DNA of 64,000 nt from Ornithinimicrobium cerasi (GTDB taxonomy: Bacteria; Actinomycetota; Actinomycetes; Actinomycetales; Dermatophilaceae): positions 62,001 through 126,000 of the forward strand of contig NZ_QZMN01000011.1 in assembly GCF_003702705.1 (NCBI RefSeq), read 5' to 3'. Shown here piece after piece: positions 38,097 through 49,935 of this stretch. The notes beneath the pieces were generated by a model that was not told the origin of the DNA, did no database searches, and saw only the letters and a list, made by a program, of their open reading frames with translations. The first letter of the stretch is position 1. The number at the start of each line of letters is the position of its first letter. The translations under genes were made by a program, and so were the position numbers.

Positions 38097-39638
38097 TCAG
38101 ACGTCCTCGCTCACCAGCTCGGTGAGCAAGGAGGCGGTGCGGGTATGCCGGTCGAGCAGGGCCGCGGTCTGCTCACGCGTGGCGGAGGTCGGCTCGGGCA
38201 GCTGGACCCGGCGCACGCGACCACGCTCGTCGAGCAGGACGACCGAGTCCCACGAGGCGGCGCGGACGTCCGTGCCGAAACGACGCACGACCTCGCCGCG
38301 GAACCAGGCGCGGGTGTCCGCCGGCGGCTCGGCGACCGCGGCGGCGATCGCCGCGTCGTCGACCAGACGCTCCAGCTGGCCCGCGGCGCGCAGCCGCAGC
38401 GCCAGCCCCCGTGCGGGGTCCAGGTCGTGCCACTGGATGTCCATCGCCTGCACCCGCGGGTCGTCCCACGCGGCGCCGGCCCGGTCGCGGAACCTCTCGA
38501 GGAGCGAGAGCTTGGCCACCCACTCGACCTGGGCGGCGCAGGAGGCGGGGTCGACGCGCAGGGCGTCGAGGACCGTGCGCCACCGCCCCAGGACGAGGCG
38601 GGTCTCCTCGTCGAGGACCCACCCCTCGTGACCACCGACGGCGGCCTCCTCGACCGCCTCGAGGTGGGCCTCGAGCAGGTCGAGCCCGGTCAGGTGCCGT
38701 CCGTCGAGGGTCTCGACCGTCGCGCGCAGGGTCGGGTCGTGGGAGATGACCTGCGCCGCCGCCACCGGGGCGCGCAGCGTGACGTCGGGGACCGCCCCGG
38801 GGTCTGTCTCCAGGAGACGGAGGACGGCGCTGAGCGAGCCGACGGCGAGGAGGGTCGTCACGTCGGCCATCGTGGCGTCGCCCACGATGACGTGCAGCCG
38901 GCGCCACAGGTGCGGGGTCGCGTGCGGCTCGTCCCGGGTGTTGATGATCGGGCGGCGCAGCGTGGTCTCCAGCCCCACCTCGGCCTCGAGGTAGTCGGCG
39001 CGCTGGCTCAGCTGGAAGCCGGGTCGCTCGCTCGTCTGCCCCAGCCCCACCCGGCCGGCGCCGGCGATGACGGGTCGGGCCACGAGGAAGGGGATCAGGT
39101 CGCGGGCGATCCGTTCGAACGGCACGGTGCGCGGGACGAGGTAGTTCTCGTGGGTCCCGTAGGAGGCGCCCTTGCCGTCGACGTTGTTCTTGTAGAGCCG
39201 CACCTGCTGCCCGCGCCCGGCCAGCGTCCGCGCCGCGGCGAGCGCCACCTGCTCGCCGGCGCGGTCGTAGCGCACCGCCTCGGTGGGCGAGGTGACCTCG
39301 GGTGAGGAGTACTCGGGGTGGGCGTGGTCGACGTAGAACCGCGCGCCGTTGGCCAGCACGGTGTTGGCGATCGTCGGGTCCTCGACGTCGGTGAGCTGGG
39401 AGCGGTCGGCGAGCGCGCGGGCCATCTCGTAGCCGCGGGCGTCCCGCAGCGGCGTCTCGTCGGCGTAGTCCCAGCCGGAGCCGGTGGGCAGGGCGGCGCC
39501 CGCGTGCGCGCCCGCGGCGTAGGCCTGCACGACCTGGCCCGAGAGGAGCATGGGGGTGAGGGGCCGTCCCTGGGCGTCGACCTGGTCGCTGGTGATCCCC
39601 AGCTCGGTCTCGATCCCCATCACGCGACGGACGGTCAT
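38097..39638 (-). CDS. dop: Pup deamidase/depupylase Dop
   Basis: A 513-aa homologue of PafA. It deamidates the GGQ end of Pup and also removes Pup from substrates. It has MGIETELGI at the N-terminus, the extra Dop loop after it (about residues 38-80, GSGWDYADETPLRD), FYVDHAHPEYSSPEVTSP, YKNNVDGKGASYGTHENYL and RPIINTRDEPHA. Start ATG; TAGGGT (39645-39650, minus strand) lies 6 nt upstream and contains the tetR stop codon. In most actinobacteria mpa is immediately upstream; here it is 4 kb away. Confidence 0.95.
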   Translation of the reverse strand: MTVRRVMGIETELGITSDQVDAQGRPLTPMLLSGQVVQAYAAGAHAGAALPTGSGWDYADETPLRDARGYEMARALADRSQLTDVEDPTIANTVLANGARFYVDHAHPEYSSPEVTSPTEAVRYDRAGEQVALAAARTLAGRGQQVRLYKNNVDGKGASYGTHENYLVPRTVPFERIARDLIPFLVARPVIAGAGRVGLGQTSERPGFQLSQRADYLEAEVGLETTLRRPIINTRDEPHATPHLWRRLHVIVGDATMADVTTLLAVGSLSAVLRLLETDPGAVPDVTLRAPVAAAQVISHDPTLRATVETLDGRHLTGLDLLEAHLEAVEEAAVGGHEGWVLDEETRLVLGRWRTVLDALRVDPASCAAQVEWVAKLSLLERFRDRAGAAWDDPRVQAMDIQWHDLDPARGLALRLRAAGQLERLVDDAAIAAAVAEPPADTRAWFRGEVVRRFGTDVRAASWDSVVLLDERGRVRRVQLPEPTSATREQTAALLDRHTRTASLLTELVSEDV

Positions 39639-39647
39639 GGGGCCACC

Positions 39648-40238
39648 CTACGGTCCCTTCCCGACGGCGGTCCCGCCGTCCGCCCCGGTCGCCCGGGGCA
39701 CGTCCAGACGGTCGAGGACGGCCTGGACGAGGGCGCCGTACTCGCGGACCACGGCGTCCTCGAGCCCCTCGTCGTCGGCACCCTCGAGGAGGCCGAAGGT
39801 GCGCACGCCGGCCGCCAGGCCGATCATCAGGCAGGCCAGCTGCTCGACGTGCCGCCGGTCCTCACCCTCGGACGGGAAGCGGCCGAGGAAGCGCTGCCGG
39901 AAGTCGGCGAGCGCGGTCTCCCGGTCCGGCGCCTGCGGGAAGAGGTAGAGGGCGCGCAGCCACGGCTCGGCGGCCTCCTCGTCGCGGCGGGTCAGCATCC
40001 GGCGGACCAGGAGCTCACCCATGCCCTCCAGCGGGGTGTCGGGGAGCAGCGGCGCGGGCTCGGCGGGCCGGGCGAGGGCGTGCAGCTGCTCCTTGGAGCC
40101 GGCGATCTTCATCACCATCGCCGGTGAGACCCCCGCGACCCCCGCCACCTCACGGATGGTGACCGACGCATACCCCCTCTCGCCGAAGAGCCGACGTGCC
40201 GAGCGCAGCACCCGTTCGCGGGTCTCGGTGGCGCTCAC
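39648..40238 (-). CDS. TetR family transcriptional regulator
   Basis: A 196-aa protein with an N-terminal TetR helix-turn-helix (TRERVLRSARRLFGERGYASVTIREVAGVAGVSPAMV, first 45 residues) and a variable ligand domain. The start is GTG, overlapping the TGA of the MFS gene in GTGA, so it is co-translated with the transporter and probably represses it. Its TAG stop codon is part of the dop -10 box, so the pair abuts the pup operon with no spare sequence. Confidence 0.88.
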   Translation of the reverse strand: MSATETRERVLRSARRLFGERGYASVTIREVAGVAGVSPAMVMKIAGSKEQLHALARPAEPAPLLPDTPLEGMGELLVRRMLTRRDEEAAEPWLRALYLFPQAPDRETALADFRQRFLGRFPSEGEDRRHVEQLACLMIGLAAGVRTFGLLEGADDEGLEDAVVREYGALVQAVLDRLDVPRATGADGGTAVGKGP

Positions 40239-42274
40239 GGCTCGCGCACCGCCACCGGGGTGAGGTCCGCGCGCTCCGCCGGGCGGGGGACCCCGGTGAT
40301 CAGGTCCACGTCCAGGCTGGCCGACGTGCTGTGCACGGTGAGCGCGCGGGAGCGGGTCCGGCCGGTCCCGTGGTCGACGGCGGTGAGGACGTAGCGGCCC
40401 GGAGGTGGCAGACCCAGCTCGTAGTAGCCGTCGGGGTCGGCTGTCGTCGTCCCCGCGTACTCGCCCGAGTGTCGGATGAGCGAGAGCATCACCCCGCCCA
40501 GCGGGCGGCCGGCGTCGGTGACGTGGCCGCTGAGGAGCAGTCGTCGGGTCATCGTGACGTCCTCGGCCTCCCCCGCGTCGAGGTCCACCAGCTCCGACTG
40601 CGGCGCCCAGCCCTCGGCGGAGACGACGAGCAGGTAGCTGCCTCCCTCCGGCAGGGCGAGGACGTAGCGGCCGTCGTTGTCGGTGCGGCCCCAGTCGACG
40701 TGCCGACCGTCGGGGTGGAGCACGGTGGCGACGGCCTGGCGCAGCGGCCTCCCGGCCGGGCCGACCACCCGGCCCCGCACGAGCACCTCGGGCCGTTCCC
40801 CGTCGGCCTTGACGTGCACCCGCTCACCCGTCGGGACGGCGCCGGCCGGTTCCAGGCTCTCGTCGAGCCGCACCGGTCGGCGGATGAACGCGGCGATGAG
40901 GGCGCCACCGAGCGCGGCTGCGGTCCCCGCCCAGAACACCAGCTGGTATGCCGCGAACGTCGGCGCCATCTCCCCGCTGCTCGTCCGGATCATCGAGGCG
41001 GCGAAGACCGCCGCCACGAGCGCCGACGCGGACGAGGTGCCGATGGAGCGCAGCAGGGTGTTGAGGCCGTTGGCCGAGGCCGTCTCGGTGATCGGCACGG
41101 CGCGCATGATGAGGGTCGGCATGGCCGCGAAGGCCAGGGCGGTGCCGAGGGAGGCGATGCCCGAGGTGACCATCACCTCCACCACCGAGCCGTGCAGCAG
41201 CGCGCGTGTGACGAAGCCGACCGCCATGGCGAGCGCCCCGCCGATGAGCACCGCGCGCGGCCCGTAGCGCCGGATGAGGCCCGCCGACAGGGGCGACATC
41301 GCGACCATGAGGATCCCCGCCGGGAGCAGCGCGAGTCCCGTGGCCACGACCGAGAGGTCGAACCCGTAGCCGGTCTCCAGGGGCATCTGGACCTGCTGGG
41401 CCGAGGTGAGGAAGTTGGCGAACATCGCGAACCCGACCAGCACGGACGCCGCGTTCGTCAGCAGCACGGTGCGCCGCATCGAGGTGCGGATGTCGACGAG
41501 CGGCTGCCCGGTCCGCAGCTCCCAGGGCACCCAGGCCGCCAGCACCAGGCCGGCGGTGACGAGAAGGGTGAGCGTGAGCGGGGAGCTCCAGCCCCACGAT
41601 CCGGCCTTGCTCACCGCCAGGAGGAAGCAGGTCAGCGCGACCGAGAGGAGCACCGCGCCGAGGAAGTCGAACCGCCCCCGGGTGCGGACGGTCGACTCGG
41701 GCACCACCCGGTGCACGGCGACGAGCATGACGACCGCGAACCCGCCGGAGACGTAGAAGAGTGCGTGCCAGTCGAGGCTCTGGTAGATCACGCCCGCCAG
41801 CGGCATACCCACCGCGCCCCCGATGCCGAGCGTCGCGGACATCAGCGCGACGCCGGAGCCGACCTTGTCGGCGGGCAGGTGGTCGCGCATGATGCTGATG
41901 CCGACGGGCACGAGACAGGCGCCCAGGCCCGCGAGACCGCGGCCGAGGATGACCATCCCGAGGCTGGTGGACAGCGCGCCGATGAGCGACCCGACGATGA
42001 CCGCCCACATGCAGACGAGCATCATCAGGCGCTTGCCGAACATGTCCGCGAGCCGCGACACGATCGGAGTGCCGACGGCGGCCGTCAGGAGGGTGATGGT
42101 CACCAGCCAGGAGGCGTTGTCGCTGGTGGTCCCCAGGATCTCGGGGAAGTCGGGGAGCAGCGGCAGGACGAGCGTCTGCTGCAGCGAGACCAGGGTCCCG
42201 CACAGGCCGAGGACGGCGATGATCGCGCCGGTGGACGGGCCGGGACGGGCCGTCTCGGCCTCCAGTGAACGCAT
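40235..42274 (-). CDS. DHA2-like 14-TM MFS drug transporter with C-terminal carboxypeptidase-regulatory-like domains
   Basis: About 679 aa. Residues 1-500 form a 14-helix major facilitator of the drug:H+ antiporter-2 type (NASWLVTITLLTAAVGTPIVSRLADMFGKR read in parts, GRGLAGLGACLVPVGISI, motif with RRYGPRAVL). The last 170 residues are soluble and contain two beta-sandwich CarboxypepD_reg/CNA-B-like repeats (LVRGRVVGPAGRPLRQAVA ... GRYVLALPEGG, and LLSGHVTDAGRPLGGV ... GYYELGLPPPG). The fusion is unusual for an exporter. I use the ATG at 42272-42274, with TAGACT 7 nt upstream; a GTG 2 codons earlier is the alternative. Confidence 0.88.
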   Translation of the reverse strand: MRSLEAETARPGPSTGAIIAVLGLCGTLVSLQQTLVLPLLPDFPEILGTTSDNASWLVTITLLTAAVGTPIVSRLADMFGKRLMMLVCMWAVIVGSLIGALSTSLGMVILGRGLAGLGACLVPVGISIMRDHLPADKVGSGVALMSATLGIGGAVGMPLAGVIYQSLDWHALFYVSGGFAVVMLVAVHRVVPESTVRTRGRFDFLGAVLLSVALTCFLLAVSKAGSWGWSSPLTLTLLVTAGLVLAAWVPWELRTGQPLVDIRTSMRRTVLLTNAASVLVGFAMFANFLTSAQQVQMPLETGYGFDLSVVATGLALLPAGILMVAMSPLSAGLIRRYGPRAVLIGGALAMAVGFVTRALLHGSVVEVMVTSGIASLGTALAFAAMPTLIMRAVPITETASANGLNTLLRSIGTSSASALVAAVFAASMIRTSSGEMAPTFAAYQLVFWAGTAAALGGALIAAFIRRPVRLDESLEPAGAVPTGERVHVKADGERPEVLVRGRVVGPAGRPLRQAVATVLHPDGRHVDWGRTDNDGRYVLALPEGGSYLLVVSAEGWAPQSELVDLDAGEAEDVTMTRRLLLSGHVTDAGRPLGGVMLSLIRHSGEYAGTTTADPDGYYELGLPPPGRYVLTAVDHGTGRTRSRALTVHSTSASLDVDLITGVPRPAERADLTPVAVREP

Positions 42275-42339
42275 GTTCACCAGTCTACGTGCCCGCCGCA
42301 GGTCGACCGACCGTCATCTCGTGCGCCGCCCTCCCCTGT

Positions 42340-42459
42340 GCACCGGCCACTCACCTGCGTGACGCCTGCCCGTCGGTCCGCCGATCGCCGCGCACCGGCC
42401 ACTCACCTGCGTGACCCACGCCCGTCGGTCCGCCGATCGCCGCGCACCGGCCACTCACC
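42340..42459 (+). repeat. 52-bp tandem repeat array, left of the nuclease gene
   Basis: Two full units (42340-42391, 42392-42443) and a 16-bp partial third (from 42444). Each begins GCACCGGCCACTCAC and continues with TGCGTGAC, then CCGTCGGTCCGCCGATCGCC; the two full units differ in only a few bases. The array lies between divergent genes and is matched by an inverted array at 43448-43610. Confidence 0.9.
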
Positions 42460-42528
42460 GGGGGGCGCCGAGACCTGCCTGTGGACAAGCGCCAACGCGA
42501 CCACCGCGGTCGCGGCACGCTTGCGCGG

Positions 42529-43443
42529 GTGACCTTCGATCCTCGTCAGCCGTTCCTGCTCGGGTCCGCGACCCGGGCCGGGCTGCCACGGCGTGCCGTG
42601 AAGTCCTCGACGTACCGGCGGGTGCTGCCCGGCGTCTACGTCGATGCCCGGGTGAAGGTCGACGGACGGGTCGAGGCGCTGGCCGCCCTGCTGCTCGCGG
42701 GTGCGGACGCATTCATCTCGCACCACCAGGCGGCCAGGCTCTACGGGGCTGTCGTCCCGGACACGGTGGTCATGCACGCGAGCATCCCCGGGAACCGCCA
42801 CCGCTCGCGACGACCCGAGCTGACGGTGCACCGGTCGGCGCGGGTGCCGACGCGGTTTCGCGGTGTGCCGGTGACGACGCCCGAGGACACGTTCCTCGAC
42901 CTGGCCGGCCACCTGACCCTGGTGGACCTGGTCGTGCTGGGCGACTCGCTCGTCCGCCGGGGGCGCACCACCCCGGACCGGCTGGTGGCCGCAACCGAGT
43001 CTGCCGGCCCACGACTCCGCCGTGCGACGCTCCGCGCCGCCCGGCTGGTGAGGCACGGCGTGGACTCCGCGATGGAGACGCGCTCCCGGTTGCTCGTCGT
43101 GCTGGCCGGCCTGCCGGAGCCGGAGGTCAACGTGTGCTTCTGGTCCCCCGACGGCCAGCTGCGGCGTCGGCTCGACCTGGCCTACCGGGCGGTGCGGCTG
43201 GCCCTCGAGTACGACGGTCGGCAGCACGCCCTTTCCCGGGCGCAGTGGGAGTCCGACGTCGCGCGCAGGGAGGAGTTCGACGCGGAGGACTGGCGCATCA
43301 TGGTGCTCCTGGCCAAGGACATCTACCGCACCCCGGCCCGCACCCTCGACCGGCTGGTCGCCGCGATGCGCAAGGCCGGGATGGAGGTCCCGCCGCTGTC
43401 CGACGAGTGGCGTAGGCACTTCCCCGGCCATGCAGCGGCGTGA
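42529..43443 (+). CDS. Vsr/DUF559-like endonuclease with N-terminal AbiEi-like domain
   Basis: About 304 aa. The N-terminal part (GLPRRAVKSSTYRRVLPGVYVD, HHQAARLYGA, PVTTPEDTFLDLA) is like the AbiEi-type antitoxin domain found in many actinobacterial proteins. The C-terminal part (RLALEYDGRQH, then a spaced D and RR, and WRIMVLLAKDIYRTP) has the Vsr/DUF559 nuclease pattern with E-x-D and Q-x-H. The start is uncertain: I use the GTG at 42529, where the conserved FDPRQPFL begins; a GTG at 42481 is possible. It is flanked on both sides by inverted 52-bp repeat arrays, in the space between mpa and dop. Confidence 0.75.
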   Translation: MTFDPRQPFLLGSATRAGLPRRAVKSSTYRRVLPGVYVDARVKVDGRVEALAALLLAGADAFISHHQAARLYGAVVPDTVVMHASIPGNRHRSRRPELTVHRSARVPTRFRGVPVTTPEDTFLDLAGHLTLVDLVVLGDSLVRRGRTTPDRLVAATESAGPRLRRATLRAARLVRHGVDSAMETRSRLLVVLAGLPEPEVNVCFWSPDGQLRRRLDLAYRAVRLALEYDGRQHALSRAQWESDVARREEFDAEDWRIMVLLAKDIYRTPARTLDRLVAAMRKAGMEVPPLSDEWRRHFPGHAAA

Positions 43444-43447
43444 CCCC

Positions 43448-43610
43448 TGCACGCGAGACCGGTCCGCGGGGCGCAGGGACCACCCACGTGAGTGCCCGGT
43501 GCACGCCATACCGACCAGGCCCGCACCCCGGCCACCCACGTGAGTGGCCGGTGCACGCCATACCGACCTGACCCGCACCCAGGCCACCCACGTGAGTGGC
43601 TCCTGCACGC
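43448..43610 (-). repeat. 52-bp tandem repeat array, right of the nuclease gene, inverted
   Basis: Units start at 43480, 43532 and 43584 (the last incomplete), preceded by a truncated one from 43448. Read on the minus strand each carries GCACCGGCCACTCAC followed by GTGGGTGGCC, the same 15-base start as the left array, and the period is again 52 bp. The core GGCCACTCACGTG with GGTGGCC is nearly palindromic. The array starts 5 bp after the nuclease stop and ends 5 bp before the mpa stop. Confidence 0.9.
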
Positions 43611-43614
43611 ACCG

Positions 43615-45303
43615 TCAGAGGAAGGGGCCGTGCGCCCCCTGCTCGACCGAGCGACCCGGGTGGGTCCCCGTGCTGTCGCCGACCAGGGTGCGGATGTAGA
43701 CGATCCGCTCACCCTTCTTGCCGGACACCCTCGCCCAGTCGTCGGGGTTGGTGGTGTTGGGCAGGTCCTCGTTCTCCCGGAACTCGTCGAGGTAGGCCTG
43801 GTCGAGGTGCCGCTGGCGCAGTCCCTCGTCGCCGCTGAGGAGCAGGTCCTTGATGGCGAGCTTCTTGGCCCGGTCCACGATGTTGCGCACCATCGCCCCG
43901 GACGCGAAGTCCTTGAAGTACAGGACCTCCCTGTCCCCGCCGGCGTAGGTCACCTCGAGGAACGCGTTCTCCGGCGACACGGCATACATCCCCCCGACGG
44001 TGACGTCGATGAACGCCGCGACCGTGGTTGTGCGGTCGCCCCCGTGGGCTGCGACCTCGTCCGGGTGCAGCGGCACGTCGGTGGTCAGGTACTTCGCGAA
44101 GATGTCCCGCGCACCTGCGGCGTCGGGCCGCTCGATCTTGATCTTCACGTCGAGCCGGCCGGGGCGCAGGATCGCCGGGTCGATCATGTCCTCACGGTTG
44201 GAGGCACCGATGACGATGACGTTGTCGAGACGCTCGACGCCGTCGATCTCGGCCAGCAGCTGCGGCACGATCGTCGTCTCGACGTCGGAGGACACCCCGG
44301 ACCCGCGGGTGCGGAAGAGCGACTCCATCTCGTCGAAGAAGACGACGACGGGGCGGCCGTCCGCCGACTTCTCCCGCGCGCGCTGGAAGATCAGCCGGAT
44401 GTGCCGCTCGGTCTCGCCGACGTACTTGTTGAGCAGCTCCGGGCCCTTGATGTTGAGGAAGTACGACGCCGTGCTCTCCTCGGCCGGCGCGCCCCTCAGC
44501 AGGGCCGTCTGCCGTGCGAGGGAGGCAGCGACCGCCTTGGCGATGAGCGTCTTGCCGCACCCGGGCGGCCCGTAGAGCAGCACCCCCTTCGGCGGGCGCA
44601 GCTGGTGCGCGGCGTAGAGGTCCTGGTGCAGGAACGGGAGCTCGACGGCGTCGCGGATCTGCTCGATCTGCCCGGTCAGCCCGCCGATGTCGTCGTAGGA
44701 GATGTCCGGCACCTCCTCCAGCACCAGCTCCATCACCTCCGGCCGCGGCACCCGCTCGGTGACGAAGCCGGTCCGGGGGTCCATCAGGAGGGCGTCGCCC
44801 AGGCGCACCGGTTCCTCCGCGAGGGAACCCGCCCGACGACACACCCGCTCGTCCTCACCGCGGACGATGACGACGACCCGGTCCTCGCCCAGCAGCTCCT
44901 TGCAGGTGACGACCTCCCCGGACCGTTCGTACCCCGCCACCGCCACGACCGCCTGGGCCTCGTTGAGGAGCACCTCGCGCCCCGGTCGCAGCTCGTCGGT
45001 CGACAGCTCGGAGGAGACCCCGGTGCGCACCCGACGGCCTGCCACCGACACGTCCACGGTGCCGTCCCCCACGAGTCCGAGCACCAGGCCGAACGTCAGG
45101 GGCGGCGAGGCCAGGGCGTCGAGGTCCTCGCGCAGCCCGGAGATCTGGGTGCGCGCGGCCCGCAGGGTGTCCGCGAGCTGGTCGTTGCGCGCCGTCAGCT
45201 CTCCCAGCCGCGCGGTCATCGTCCGCACCTGCTGCTCGAGATTGCGCTCGCGGAACGACGGGCCCCCCGGGCCGGGGGTGCGGTCGGACGTCGGCTGGGT
45301 CAA
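43615..45303 (-). CDS. mpa: proteasome-associated AAA ATPase Mpa/ARC
   Basis: About 562 aa. Coiled coil that binds Pup (residues 16-65), two OB folds (about 70-190), then the AAA module with Walker A GPPGCGKT at 245-252, Walker [12 protein letters not shown], and a C-terminal helical part. Mpa unfolds pupylated proteins and feeds them to the 20S proteasome. The usual C-terminus GQYL, which opens the 20S gate, is GPFL here. I infer a TTG start (45301-45303), because AGGAGG lies 4 nt upstream and the coiled coil follows. The gene ends beside the repeat array at 43610; prcA and prcB are not in the window. Confidence 0.9.
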
Positions 45304-48828: not shown

Positions 48829-49935
48829 TCAAGGAATCCCCTCGTCGCCCGCGGCTCCCGGGGCCTCGGTCTCCTGGGCGTCGGTGGTCGCCCGGGCGTC
48901 GGCGGTCGCTCCCGGGTCCTCGGTCGCCCGGGCGTCGGCGGTCGCCCGGGCGTCACGGGCGGTGCGCCGCACCCGCTTGGCCGACACCGCCCGCTCGCCG
49001 AGCTCCTCGGCGCTCCACTCCCCCTCGTCGTGAGGGACGTAGTCCTCCCCGTAGGCGCCCTTGGCCGGTCGCCGCTTGAGCAGCGGCGCGGCGGTGCCGG
49101 GGGCCAGGCTCCGCACCGTGAGGAGGAACCCGGTGTGACCGTGCATGCGGTGCTGAGGTCGCACGGCCAGTCCCTCGAGGTGCCAGCCCCGCACCAGCGA
49201 CTCCCACGCCTGCGGCTCGGTCCAGCCGCCGTGGGTGCGTGCGGTCTCGGCCACCCGCGAGAGCTGGGTCGCGGTGGCGACGTAGCAGATCAGCACCCCG
49301 CCGGGGGCGAGGGCCTCGTGCACGACGTCGAGGCACTCCCAGGGCGCCAGCATGTCGAGCACGACCCGGTCCACCGACCCGGGCGCGACGCTGCCGGGCA
49401 GCGCCTCGACGAGGTCGCCCACGGTCACGGACCAGGCCGGGTGGTCGCGGCCGAAGAAGGCGCGGGCGTTGGCCCGGGCGATCTCGGCGAAGTCCTCGCG
49501 ACGCTCGAAGCTGAGGAGGCGGCCGGAGTCCCCCACCGCACGGAGCAGGGACAGCGAGAGCGCCCCCGATCCGACGCCCGCCTCGACGACCGTCGCACCG
49601 GGGTAGATGTCCGCGTAGGTGACGATCTGACCGGCGTCCTTGGGGTAGACCACCTGCGCGCCGCGCGGCATCGAGAGCACGTAGTCGGAGAGCAGCGGCC
49701 GCAGGGCGAGGTAGTCCGCCCCGGAGCTGTGCCGCACGACGCTCCCGTCGGGTGCGCCGATGAGGTCGTCGTGACGGACGTGGCCGCGGTGGGTGTGGAA
49801 GGTGGCGCCCGGCTCCAGGGTGATGGTGTGCAGCCGGCCCTTCGGGTCGGTGAGCTGCACCCGGTCCCCGGCACGGAAGGGACCGCGCCGCAGGTCGGCG
49901 CCGGTCGCGGGGTGGGCGTCGTCGGGGTCGGTCAC
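48829..49935 (-). CDS. trmI: tRNA (adenine(58)-N(1))-methyltransferase TrmI
   Basis: A 368-aa protein, with an N-terminal beta-rich domain and a Rossmann methyltransferase domain: VYPKDAGQIVTYADIYPGATVVEAGVGSG (in parts; SAM site EAGVGSG at 118-124), VVLDMLAPWE and a C-terminal part typical of bacterial TrmI. It makes m1A58 in tRNA. The last 45 residues are a low-complexity tail of repeated ATADARAT and ATEDPG units not found in the core. GTG start, with TAGGAT (49942-49947) 6 nt upstream. TrmI is commonly the gene before mpa in actinobacteria. Confidence 0.9.
   Translation of the reverse strand: MTDPDDAHPATGADLRRGPFRAGDRVQLTDPKGRLHTITLEPGATFHTHRGHVRHDDLIGAPDGSVVRHSSGADYLALRPLLSDYVLSMPRGAQVVYPKDAGQIVTYADIYPGATVVEAGVGSGALSLSLLRAVGDSGRLLSFERREDFAEIARANARAFFGRDHPAWSVTVGDLVEALPGSVAPGSVDRVVLDMLAPWECLDVVHEALAPGGVLICYVATATQLSRVAETARTHGGWTEPQAWESLVRGWHLEGLAVRPQHRMHGHTGFLLTVRSLAPGTAAPLLKRRPAKGAYGEDYVPHDEGEWSAEELGERAVSAKRVRRTARDARATADARATEDPGATADARATTDAQETEAPGAAGDEGIP

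Follow-up and report, generated by a model that had tools for sequence, protein, structure and literature searches.

A nuclease gene in the window (the whole 64-kb stretch of DNA that was analysed) lies between two arrays of 52-bp repeats. Within the genus and in the wider actinobacterial family we observed an association of nuclease genes with flanking arrays, co-occurrence of nuclease and arrays in the same genomes, divergence of repeat and nuclease as a cognate pair, a recurring period and polymorphic array sites. The reading that we favour, with confidence that is about even, is a pairing similar to that of REP and RAYT, in which a nuclease that is not a transposase is matched with arrays of its own site that are helically phased. 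In REP/RAYT, the established example, one enzyme gene shapes a genome by way of short repeats between genes. In our proposal, a chromosomal single-gene nuclease would be paired with private intergenic arrays of 2 to ~12 units, mostly at 51–53 bp, and would bind as a dimer to the dyad-symmetric site of each unit, a dyad that is seen in the Ornithinimicrobium family. A period of approximately five B-DNA turns would align adjacent sites along one face of the helix, nicking or cutting at the site would promote copying, expansion and turnover of the array, and arrays would settle in intergenic gaps, between convergent gene pairs more often than expected. The nuclease, though not a transposase, would have the role for its arrays that RAYT has for REPs. 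Binding of the array sites by the nuclease itself is the simplest reading; this binding, cutting by the nuclease and the spreading of arrays by cutting are what we infer from the patterns below.

More broadly, we see an even chance that these loci represent an undescribed actinobacterial genome-shaping class, in which the nuclease maintains and spreads phased arrays, specificity has changed repeatedly with the five-turn spacing fixed, and the period is set by the protein–DNA complex. If this is true, a REP/RAYT-like lifestyle arose more than once, here with an unrelated nuclease and no detectable Y1 transposase. It would also give a testable function to a family for which AbiEi-like and DUF559-type domain names are all that is known, explain a class of actinobacterial intergenic repeats, and provide a natural series of presumptive DNA-binding nucleases with co-diverging, readable target sites.

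The nuclease gene and its flanking arrays

Both TRF and the positions of the repeat cores place a 52-bp array on each side of the nuclease ORF, neither array being assigned to a strand. The ORF (42481–43443, plus strand) encodes 320 aa from a GTG start that is uncertain, as the codon-usage caller prefers 42598 and most homologues align from about residue 8–23. The left array (42340–42459; 2.3 copies, 95% matches, score 219) and the right array (43480–43600; 2.3 copies, 94%, score 214) each have a TRF period of 52, as the preliminary description had claimed, and give the top two scores among the 32 TRF rows of the window, the next being 118. Matches to the 16-bp core CCACTCACGTGAGTGG lie at 42347–42362, 42399–42414 and 42451–42466 in the left array (3, 3 and 5 mismatches) and at 43480–43495, 43532–43547 and 43584–43599 in the right array (2, 1 and 1 mismatches). 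A candidate decayed fourth right unit, likewise unstranded, at 43428–43443 (7 mismatches in 16) keeps the register of the right array and overlaps the end of the ORF. The two to three left and three to four right units first proposed agree well with three cores per side and this possible fourth. The arrays had also been described as opposite in orientation, and their inverted similarity is real: 42389–42416 matches 43530–43557 at 86% over 28 positions, and GCACCGGCCACTCAC is found three times on the plus strand in the left array and, on the minus strand in the right array, once exactly and once with one mismatch. Since the units are dyad-symmetric, a direct alignment of the left and right arrays is possible as well.

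Gene neighbours were obtained from a codon-usage gene caller trained on the 64-kb window, and window gene names were assigned by reading of the proteins. The order is a dop-like gene (38097–39638), TetR (39648–40238), an MFS transporter gene (40235–42280, minus strand), the nuclease gene and the mpa/ARC proteasomal ATPase gene (43615–45219, minus strand), which is convergent with the nuclease gene and has an uncertain start, with an open frame to 45849. The original placement of the unit immediately between mpa and dop had to be corrected, as the MFS gene and mpa adjoin the nuclease gene, and TetR and the MFS gene separate it from the dop-like gene. Elsewhere in the window, approximately five copies of an 18-bp direct repeat occur at 48867–48954, within a called gene (48829–49935, minus strand).

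The nuclease has an AbiEi-like N-terminal part (about residues 38–181) and an MTES_1575/DUF559-type C-terminal part (about 230–295), and the C-terminal domain of the family scores with both PF18741 (MTES_1575) and PF04480 (DUF559). The window protein itself falls below the curated Pfam cut-offs (MTES_1575, 28.2 of 38.2 bits; DUF559, 15.4 of 20.6), and among 66 homologues Pfam matches at E ≤ 0.01 were found to MTES_1575 in 63 and to DUF559 in 36. Residues D155, S196, E199, R203, P212, G246, H249 and P285 are invariant in the 66 homologues and D232, E243, D245, D259 and R262 nearly so; conservation of E199, D232, E243, D245, G246, H249 and D259 is 95–100%. The conserved acidic residues appear to be of the catalytic, active-site type of a DUF559/MTES_1575 nuclease. 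A fold profile search returned a sole match, 3hrl 'Endonuclease-Like Protein' (E 0.025); the C-terminal domain is probably of PD-(D/E)XK type, and the N-terminus presumably binds DNA. A likeness to Vsr was proposed in the preliminary description. When four family members were searched against NCBIfam, one matched, by a stray repeat model. The dN/dS ratio among the five Ornithinimicrobium orthologues is 0.22–0.41, which indicates that the gene is under purifying selection. A phage or plasmid origin of the nuclease was considered and rejected: at E ≤ 1e-5, nothing matched among 50,697 phage records, and the 72,556 plasmid records gave a single match, weak and partial.

In PADLOC, the N-terminus of the window protein is AbiEi-like (best E 9.5e-13), a stretch that it shares with the AbiE type IV toxin–antitoxin system. 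Unlike AbiE, the AbiEi-like part is joined to a nuclease domain, and no AbiEii is adjacent in the window. The PADLOC score would fit an autoregulated gene of toxin–antitoxin or defence type, with the flanking arrays as operators of an AbiEi-like repressor–nuclease fusion and the dispersed arrays as its regulon. We consider this unlikely, since the neighbours are an MFS transporter gene and mpa, with no AbiEii-like partner, the dispersed arrays are found mostly at 3' ends, with 1 of 31 between divergent genes, and an array downstream of the gene would be hard to read as an operator.

Arrays, nuclease orthologues and empty sites in the genus

A search for the repeat in the window's own genome, referred to as G000 (other G numbers denote compared genomes), with a 16-mer at up to 3 mismatches gave 41 matches per strand versus 26 for a reversed control. 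Besides the window, G000 has 11 other array sites, on contigs C1, C2, C19, C32, C43 (three), C51, C66 and C72 (two), with 52-bp spacing and few exceptions (51, 53 and one of 40); these sites rule out that the repeats are confined to the window locus. Aligned in rows of 52, the unit is about GGTATGGCGTGCACGCG-CCACTCACGTGAGTGG-GTCGTGCACGC plus a variable spacer. The genus pattern CCACTCAN{30,60}CCACTCA was searched in 98 genomes, G000 included. Among the 32 genomes of the genus, arrays are abundant in exactly five (G000, G001, G017, G025 and G028), G005 has one two-unit array, and the remaining members, with at most 4 pattern matches, were judged to be without the unit. The spacing is exactly 52 bp in 95 of 103 matches from the five genomes (19/22, 13/14, 34/37, 7/7 and 22/23 in the order above; allowed range 37–67), as counted by hand from match rows in which a palindromic pair can count on both strands. 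As the reversed-pattern control was itself raised in array genomes, arrays were judged by sequence and spacing.

Across the 98 genomes, nuclease orthologues with 64–67% identity were found only in G001, G017, G025 and G028, the next best being at 57%. The genomes with a close orthologue and those with many arrays are therefore the same five of 32. All five orthologues stand at one locus, beside mpa, and have arrays on both sides in G000 (by TRF) and in G001 and G028 (by a core finder); in G017 and G025 one flank array was found by the pattern, and the other flank was read by eye. On a single-gene tree of mpa, the five carriers fall into three lineages (3 parsimony changes), and their sister genomes have neither the nuclease nor arrays, except for the single array of G005. 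This two-unit 52-bp array (G005:C70:19526–19584, L099) is found in a genome with no orthologous nuclease that is sister to G028 on the mpa tree, and is possibly a relic of a lost system.

The preliminary description had called for a comparison with empty sites in relatives, which revealed filled and empty states for the nuclease unit and for stand-alone arrays. The unit is present at 5 of the 30 mpa loci compared, G009 and G024 having been left out. In five genomes that do not carry it, the MFS gene adjoins mpa, with the MFS match ending 21, 70, 89, 99 and 99 bp from mpa in G004, G027, G011, G007 and G022, respectively; the remaining loci without the unit have other genes there, or an MFS gene farther off. 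Most array sites are without a nuclease. One such site separates a hydrolase gene from deoD; this gap measures 165 bp in G000 and 156 bp in G028, each with an array, and 5, 13, 15, 8 and 0 bp in G005, G011, G004, G002 and G025. Of the 11 stand-alone sites in G000, one is shared with the 9 of G028 and one with the 6 of G001, the G001 site L097 having been left out of this comparison. With one genome per species compared, and the species much diverged at the junctions, array sites are polymorphic among species; the nuclease unit, which occupies a single location in all five carriers, is at most a candidate for movement.

Repeat families beside homologous nucleases

Repeats flank nuclease homologues at many further loci, an outcome that the preliminary description had set as a check. 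Among 70 distinct homologue loci, TRF reported 28 rows of period 50–54, in 19 loci; 27 of these rows lie within 200 bp of the nuclease gene, and the remaining one continues an array. In the first set, a period of 51–53 was found in 27 of 42 rows up to 200 bp from the nuclease gene versus 1 of 16 farther away. A single-protein query of genome contigs gave 20 pattern stretches and zero relatives; an alignment query gave 344 relatives, of which the best 80 of 344 were used. Removal of 23 duplicates of earlier loci from the 80 named ones left a second set of 57, from Nocardioides, Terrabacter, Microlunatus, Intrasporangium, Flexivirga and other genera. A duplicate locus, L169, was dropped as well. 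In the second set a period of 50–52 was found in 19 of 24 near rows versus 1 of 9 far rows, the far one clustering with near rows. TRF rows can overlap in these counts, and other near-gene periods are 31–47 and 59–104.

Similarity between the two flanks exceeded 39 alignment units at 87 of 120 nuclease loci versus 1 of 205 control genes; the control genes were drawn from genus members only, the nuclease loci from more genera, and loci with less than 250 bp of flank (2 of 70 in the first set, 5 of 57 in the second) were left out. A nearby array (period ≥36) or similar flanks were present at 55 of 70 and 44 of 57 loci. At the thresholds used, 28 of 127 homologue loci have neither, including the C51 paralogue of G000 and the G025 orthologue, the latter because its units are few and diverged. 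The 87 loci with similar flanks are mostly inverted in 24 cases, mostly direct in 41 and both in 22. The locus had initially been likened to REP elements with their RAYT, with a Vsr/DUF559-type nuclease in its place; the dispersed repeats, flanked homologues and polymorphic sites bear this out, and the strictly inverted layout does not extend to the wider family. Repeats and nuclease genes might also gather in the same permissive gaps by chance or at a generic hotspot, and the same gaps do hold other repeat families in other species. Given the cognate pairing described below, the co-occurrence and the 1 of 205 control genes, we regard this as the most improbable of the explanations considered here.

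Clustering of units of period 49–54 from 35 loci gave 28 sequence-unrelated repeat families with a period of 50–53 (other periods occur). Paralogues in one genome can have different repeats, three in G035 and two in G058 at period 51–53. In 40 loci of eight genomes, picked by similarity to arrays of period 51–53, 41 of 42 TRF arrays include a row of that period. Joined into one query, 14 array slices taken from 11 genomes found between 5 and 97 matches in each home genome; two control genomes gave 3 each, all weak (best E 3.8e-4). Among the matches listed, a genome was hit almost only by its own slice, the repeats of G007 and G011 being related. Repeat copies away from the nuclease gene were found in 9 of these 11 further genomes (G007, G011, G035, G046, G047, G055, G058, G056 and G057); G005 and G054 had none clearly above control level. 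Counted by slice, at least 10 of 14 have such copies among the matches listed, and those of L155 (G035) and L160 (G058), which are the repeats of a second or third paralogue, had copies at the nuclease only among the matches listed.

Repeat similarity tracks nuclease identity: Mantel r is 0.31 over the full-length protein, and 0.34 and 0.24 when the N- and C-terminal parts, respectively, are taken separately (p 0.001 each). Most nuclease pairs with the highest scores, above ~60% identity, have repeats that are more similar than expected by chance, and most others are at chance; there are exceptions both ways, such as L156 and L237, which have similar repeats at 40% identity. Repeat and nuclease diverge as a cognate pair.

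Unit structure, array position and known systems

Alignment of 104 units from the Ornithinimicrobium family shows a conserved dyad, at positions ±2 to 7 and ±13 to 18 relative to its centre, and no covariation, paired complementarity being that expected from column composition. Since both arms are kept without compensatory change, the Ornithinimicrobium unit is probably a symmetric protein site rather than a hairpin. The near-palindromic core originally noted in the right array is borne out by the palindromic 16-bp CCACTCACGTGAGTGG and by this dyad. Strong palindromicity was rejected as a general feature of the units, with significant dyad symmetry (p < 0.05) in only 5 of 46 consensus units. 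Unusually strong folding of the right window array (z −7.5 on the minus strand, −4.1 on the plus strand) could be taken for an RNA-level role, the arrays acting as hairpin terminators or as guide-type RNAs of CRISPR or TIGR type and the link to the nuclease being secondary. This appears very improbable, since the left array folds no better than background (z −0.2 on plus, +0.8 on minus), the 104 units show zero covariation, and no Rfam family scored above threshold in 42200–43700, where there was one sub-threshold match. Such a role would further leave the DNA phasing unexplained, and spacers within an array are related, not unique. An RNA hairpin or terminator as the common principle was rejected for the lack of folding on the left, of covariation and of an Rfam family. 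Nor was a shared tag detected, as no 5- to 7-mer exceeded the shuffle maxima over 28 families; ACAAC, picked post hoc, was discarded because its presence in 7 of 28 representatives equals the best of 300 shuffles.

Unit identity is 0.71 within an array, 0.61 between arrays of one genome and 0.60 between genomes. Spacers are more alike within an array (0.51) than between arrays (0.38), and at two orthologous sites the arrays do not exceed background similarity. A recent burst of copies from one master was dismissed on the basis of the 0.61 versus 0.60 identity and of the orthologous arrays at background, findings that weigh against the favoured reading. From these alignments, spacers seem to turn over quickly, with motif and spacing persisting. 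A quick turnover in which no burst of identical copies is seen is compatible with array spreading and with a service to the host alike. As a turn of B-DNA is 10.4 bp, 51–53 bp is close to five turns, and since a period of ~52 bp recurs in unrelated repeats, it may reflect the geometry of a protein complex.

Arrays of the Ornithinimicrobium type lie between convergent genes in 19 of 31 cases (11 codirectional, 1 divergent), compared with 11 of 59 neighbour pairs in the window (38 codirectional, 10 divergent); L041 and L043 (G000) and L097 (G001) were missed by the core-finder threshold and are outside the 31. At the 40 loci of eight genomes, 17 arrays are convergent, 14 codirectional, 7 divergent and 4 at contig or stretch edges, against 27, 84 and 27 of 138 comparison pairs, and three G017 arrays are counted in both sets. 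No array was classed as inside a gene, and a few overlap gene ends, by up to 26 bp. It is possible, at somewhat lower probability than the reading that we favour, that these are host-functional binding arrays, on which the nuclease, perhaps in a catalytically quiet form, occupies phased intergenic sites, frequently where convergent genes end, as a boundary, road-block or topology-relief element kept by selection and not self-copying. The persistence of motif and 52-bp spacing with spacers near background, the convergent bias (19/31 vs 11/59 and 17/38 vs 27/138) with no array inside a gene, and the purifying selection on the nuclease gene would all suit such a role. However, array positions are mostly not shared among G000, G028 and G001, the hydrolase/deoD gap is reduced to 0–15 bp in five relatives, and the convergent bias could equally reflect avoidance of promoters.

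The pairing of a nuclease with arrays of its own site resembles REP/RAYT (REPIN) in that an enzyme gene has copies of a short intergenic repeat on its flanks and more of them elsewhere in its genome, and in that repeat and enzyme co-diverge. It differs in its nuclease, which is unrelated to the Y1/PF01797 transposase, in units that are tandem at 51–53 bp with flanking copies that are often direct, in having no covarying hairpin (in the Ornithinimicrobium family) and no conserved tag such as GTAG beside the palindrome (over 28 families), and in its occurrence in actinobacteria. RAYT-driven REPs were ruled out, as none of the 16 array genomes had a Y1_Tnp (PF01797) match at E ≤ 0.001, and 5 of 14 control genomes did. 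As both the enzyme test and, in one family, the hairpin test failed, we do not file the system under REP/RAYT. Mycobacterial MIRU and other intergenic tandem repeats are likewise short tandem units between the genes of an actinobacterium, a likeness of layout. To our knowledge, MIRU and other intergenic tandem repeats have no cognate enzyme gene. TIGR-Tas and CRISPR likewise have a nuclease beside a repeat array (PMC12045711); unlike these, the present arrays occur at scattered sites, flank the gene on either side and have no unique spacers. Among the Pfam matches of the 66 homologues there was no Nop, Cas, HNH or RuvC family. In the open-access literature, we found no published report of cognate repeat arrays for DUF559/MTES_1575-type nucleases, and none combining REP, actinobacteria and nuclease, the latter zero being lower than expected and weak evidence from open-access papers only. 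The literature cited for known systems further comprises PMC3733652, PMC2817692 and PMC3116915.

A distant member of the nuclease family is located in the pepN/malQ gap of G017, G004, G025 and G002 (hmmsearch E 4e-14 to 6e-21). L306 in G017 was the sole one of these loci inspected at the sequence level, the other three being L320, L316 and L323. At L306, a ~20-bp motif, CCGGACAGGCGCTCCTGCCA / TGGCAGTAACGCCTGTCCGG, is present in three copies per side of the nuclease homologue, inverted, so that the architecture may extend beyond the 52-bp type. In G006, G016 and G010 (L325, L328 and L329), the pepN/malQ gap, which is convergent, contains 32-bp tandem repeats, or about three helical turns. The hydrolase/deoD gap of G012, G031, G030, G029 and G018 (L291–L294 and L297) is filled by a single near-perfect palindrome of ~50 bp, TTCTGGACATAGGTTTCTGGG...CCCAGAAACCTATGTCCAGAA, where G000 has its 52-bp array. 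Repeats similar to GACCGGCCGCACGGTTTGCGT occur in both orientations in the deoD gap of G007 and G027 (L295 and L296), and the GACCGGCCGCACGGTTTGCGT motif forms an 8-copy array with 22-bp spacing at L133 (4503–4657), ~1.1 kb from another G007 nuclease. Single imperfect hairpins of ~50–60 bp were read by eye beside mpa in G005, G026 and G002 (L339, L350 and L351), genomes that have no nuclease at the mpa locus.
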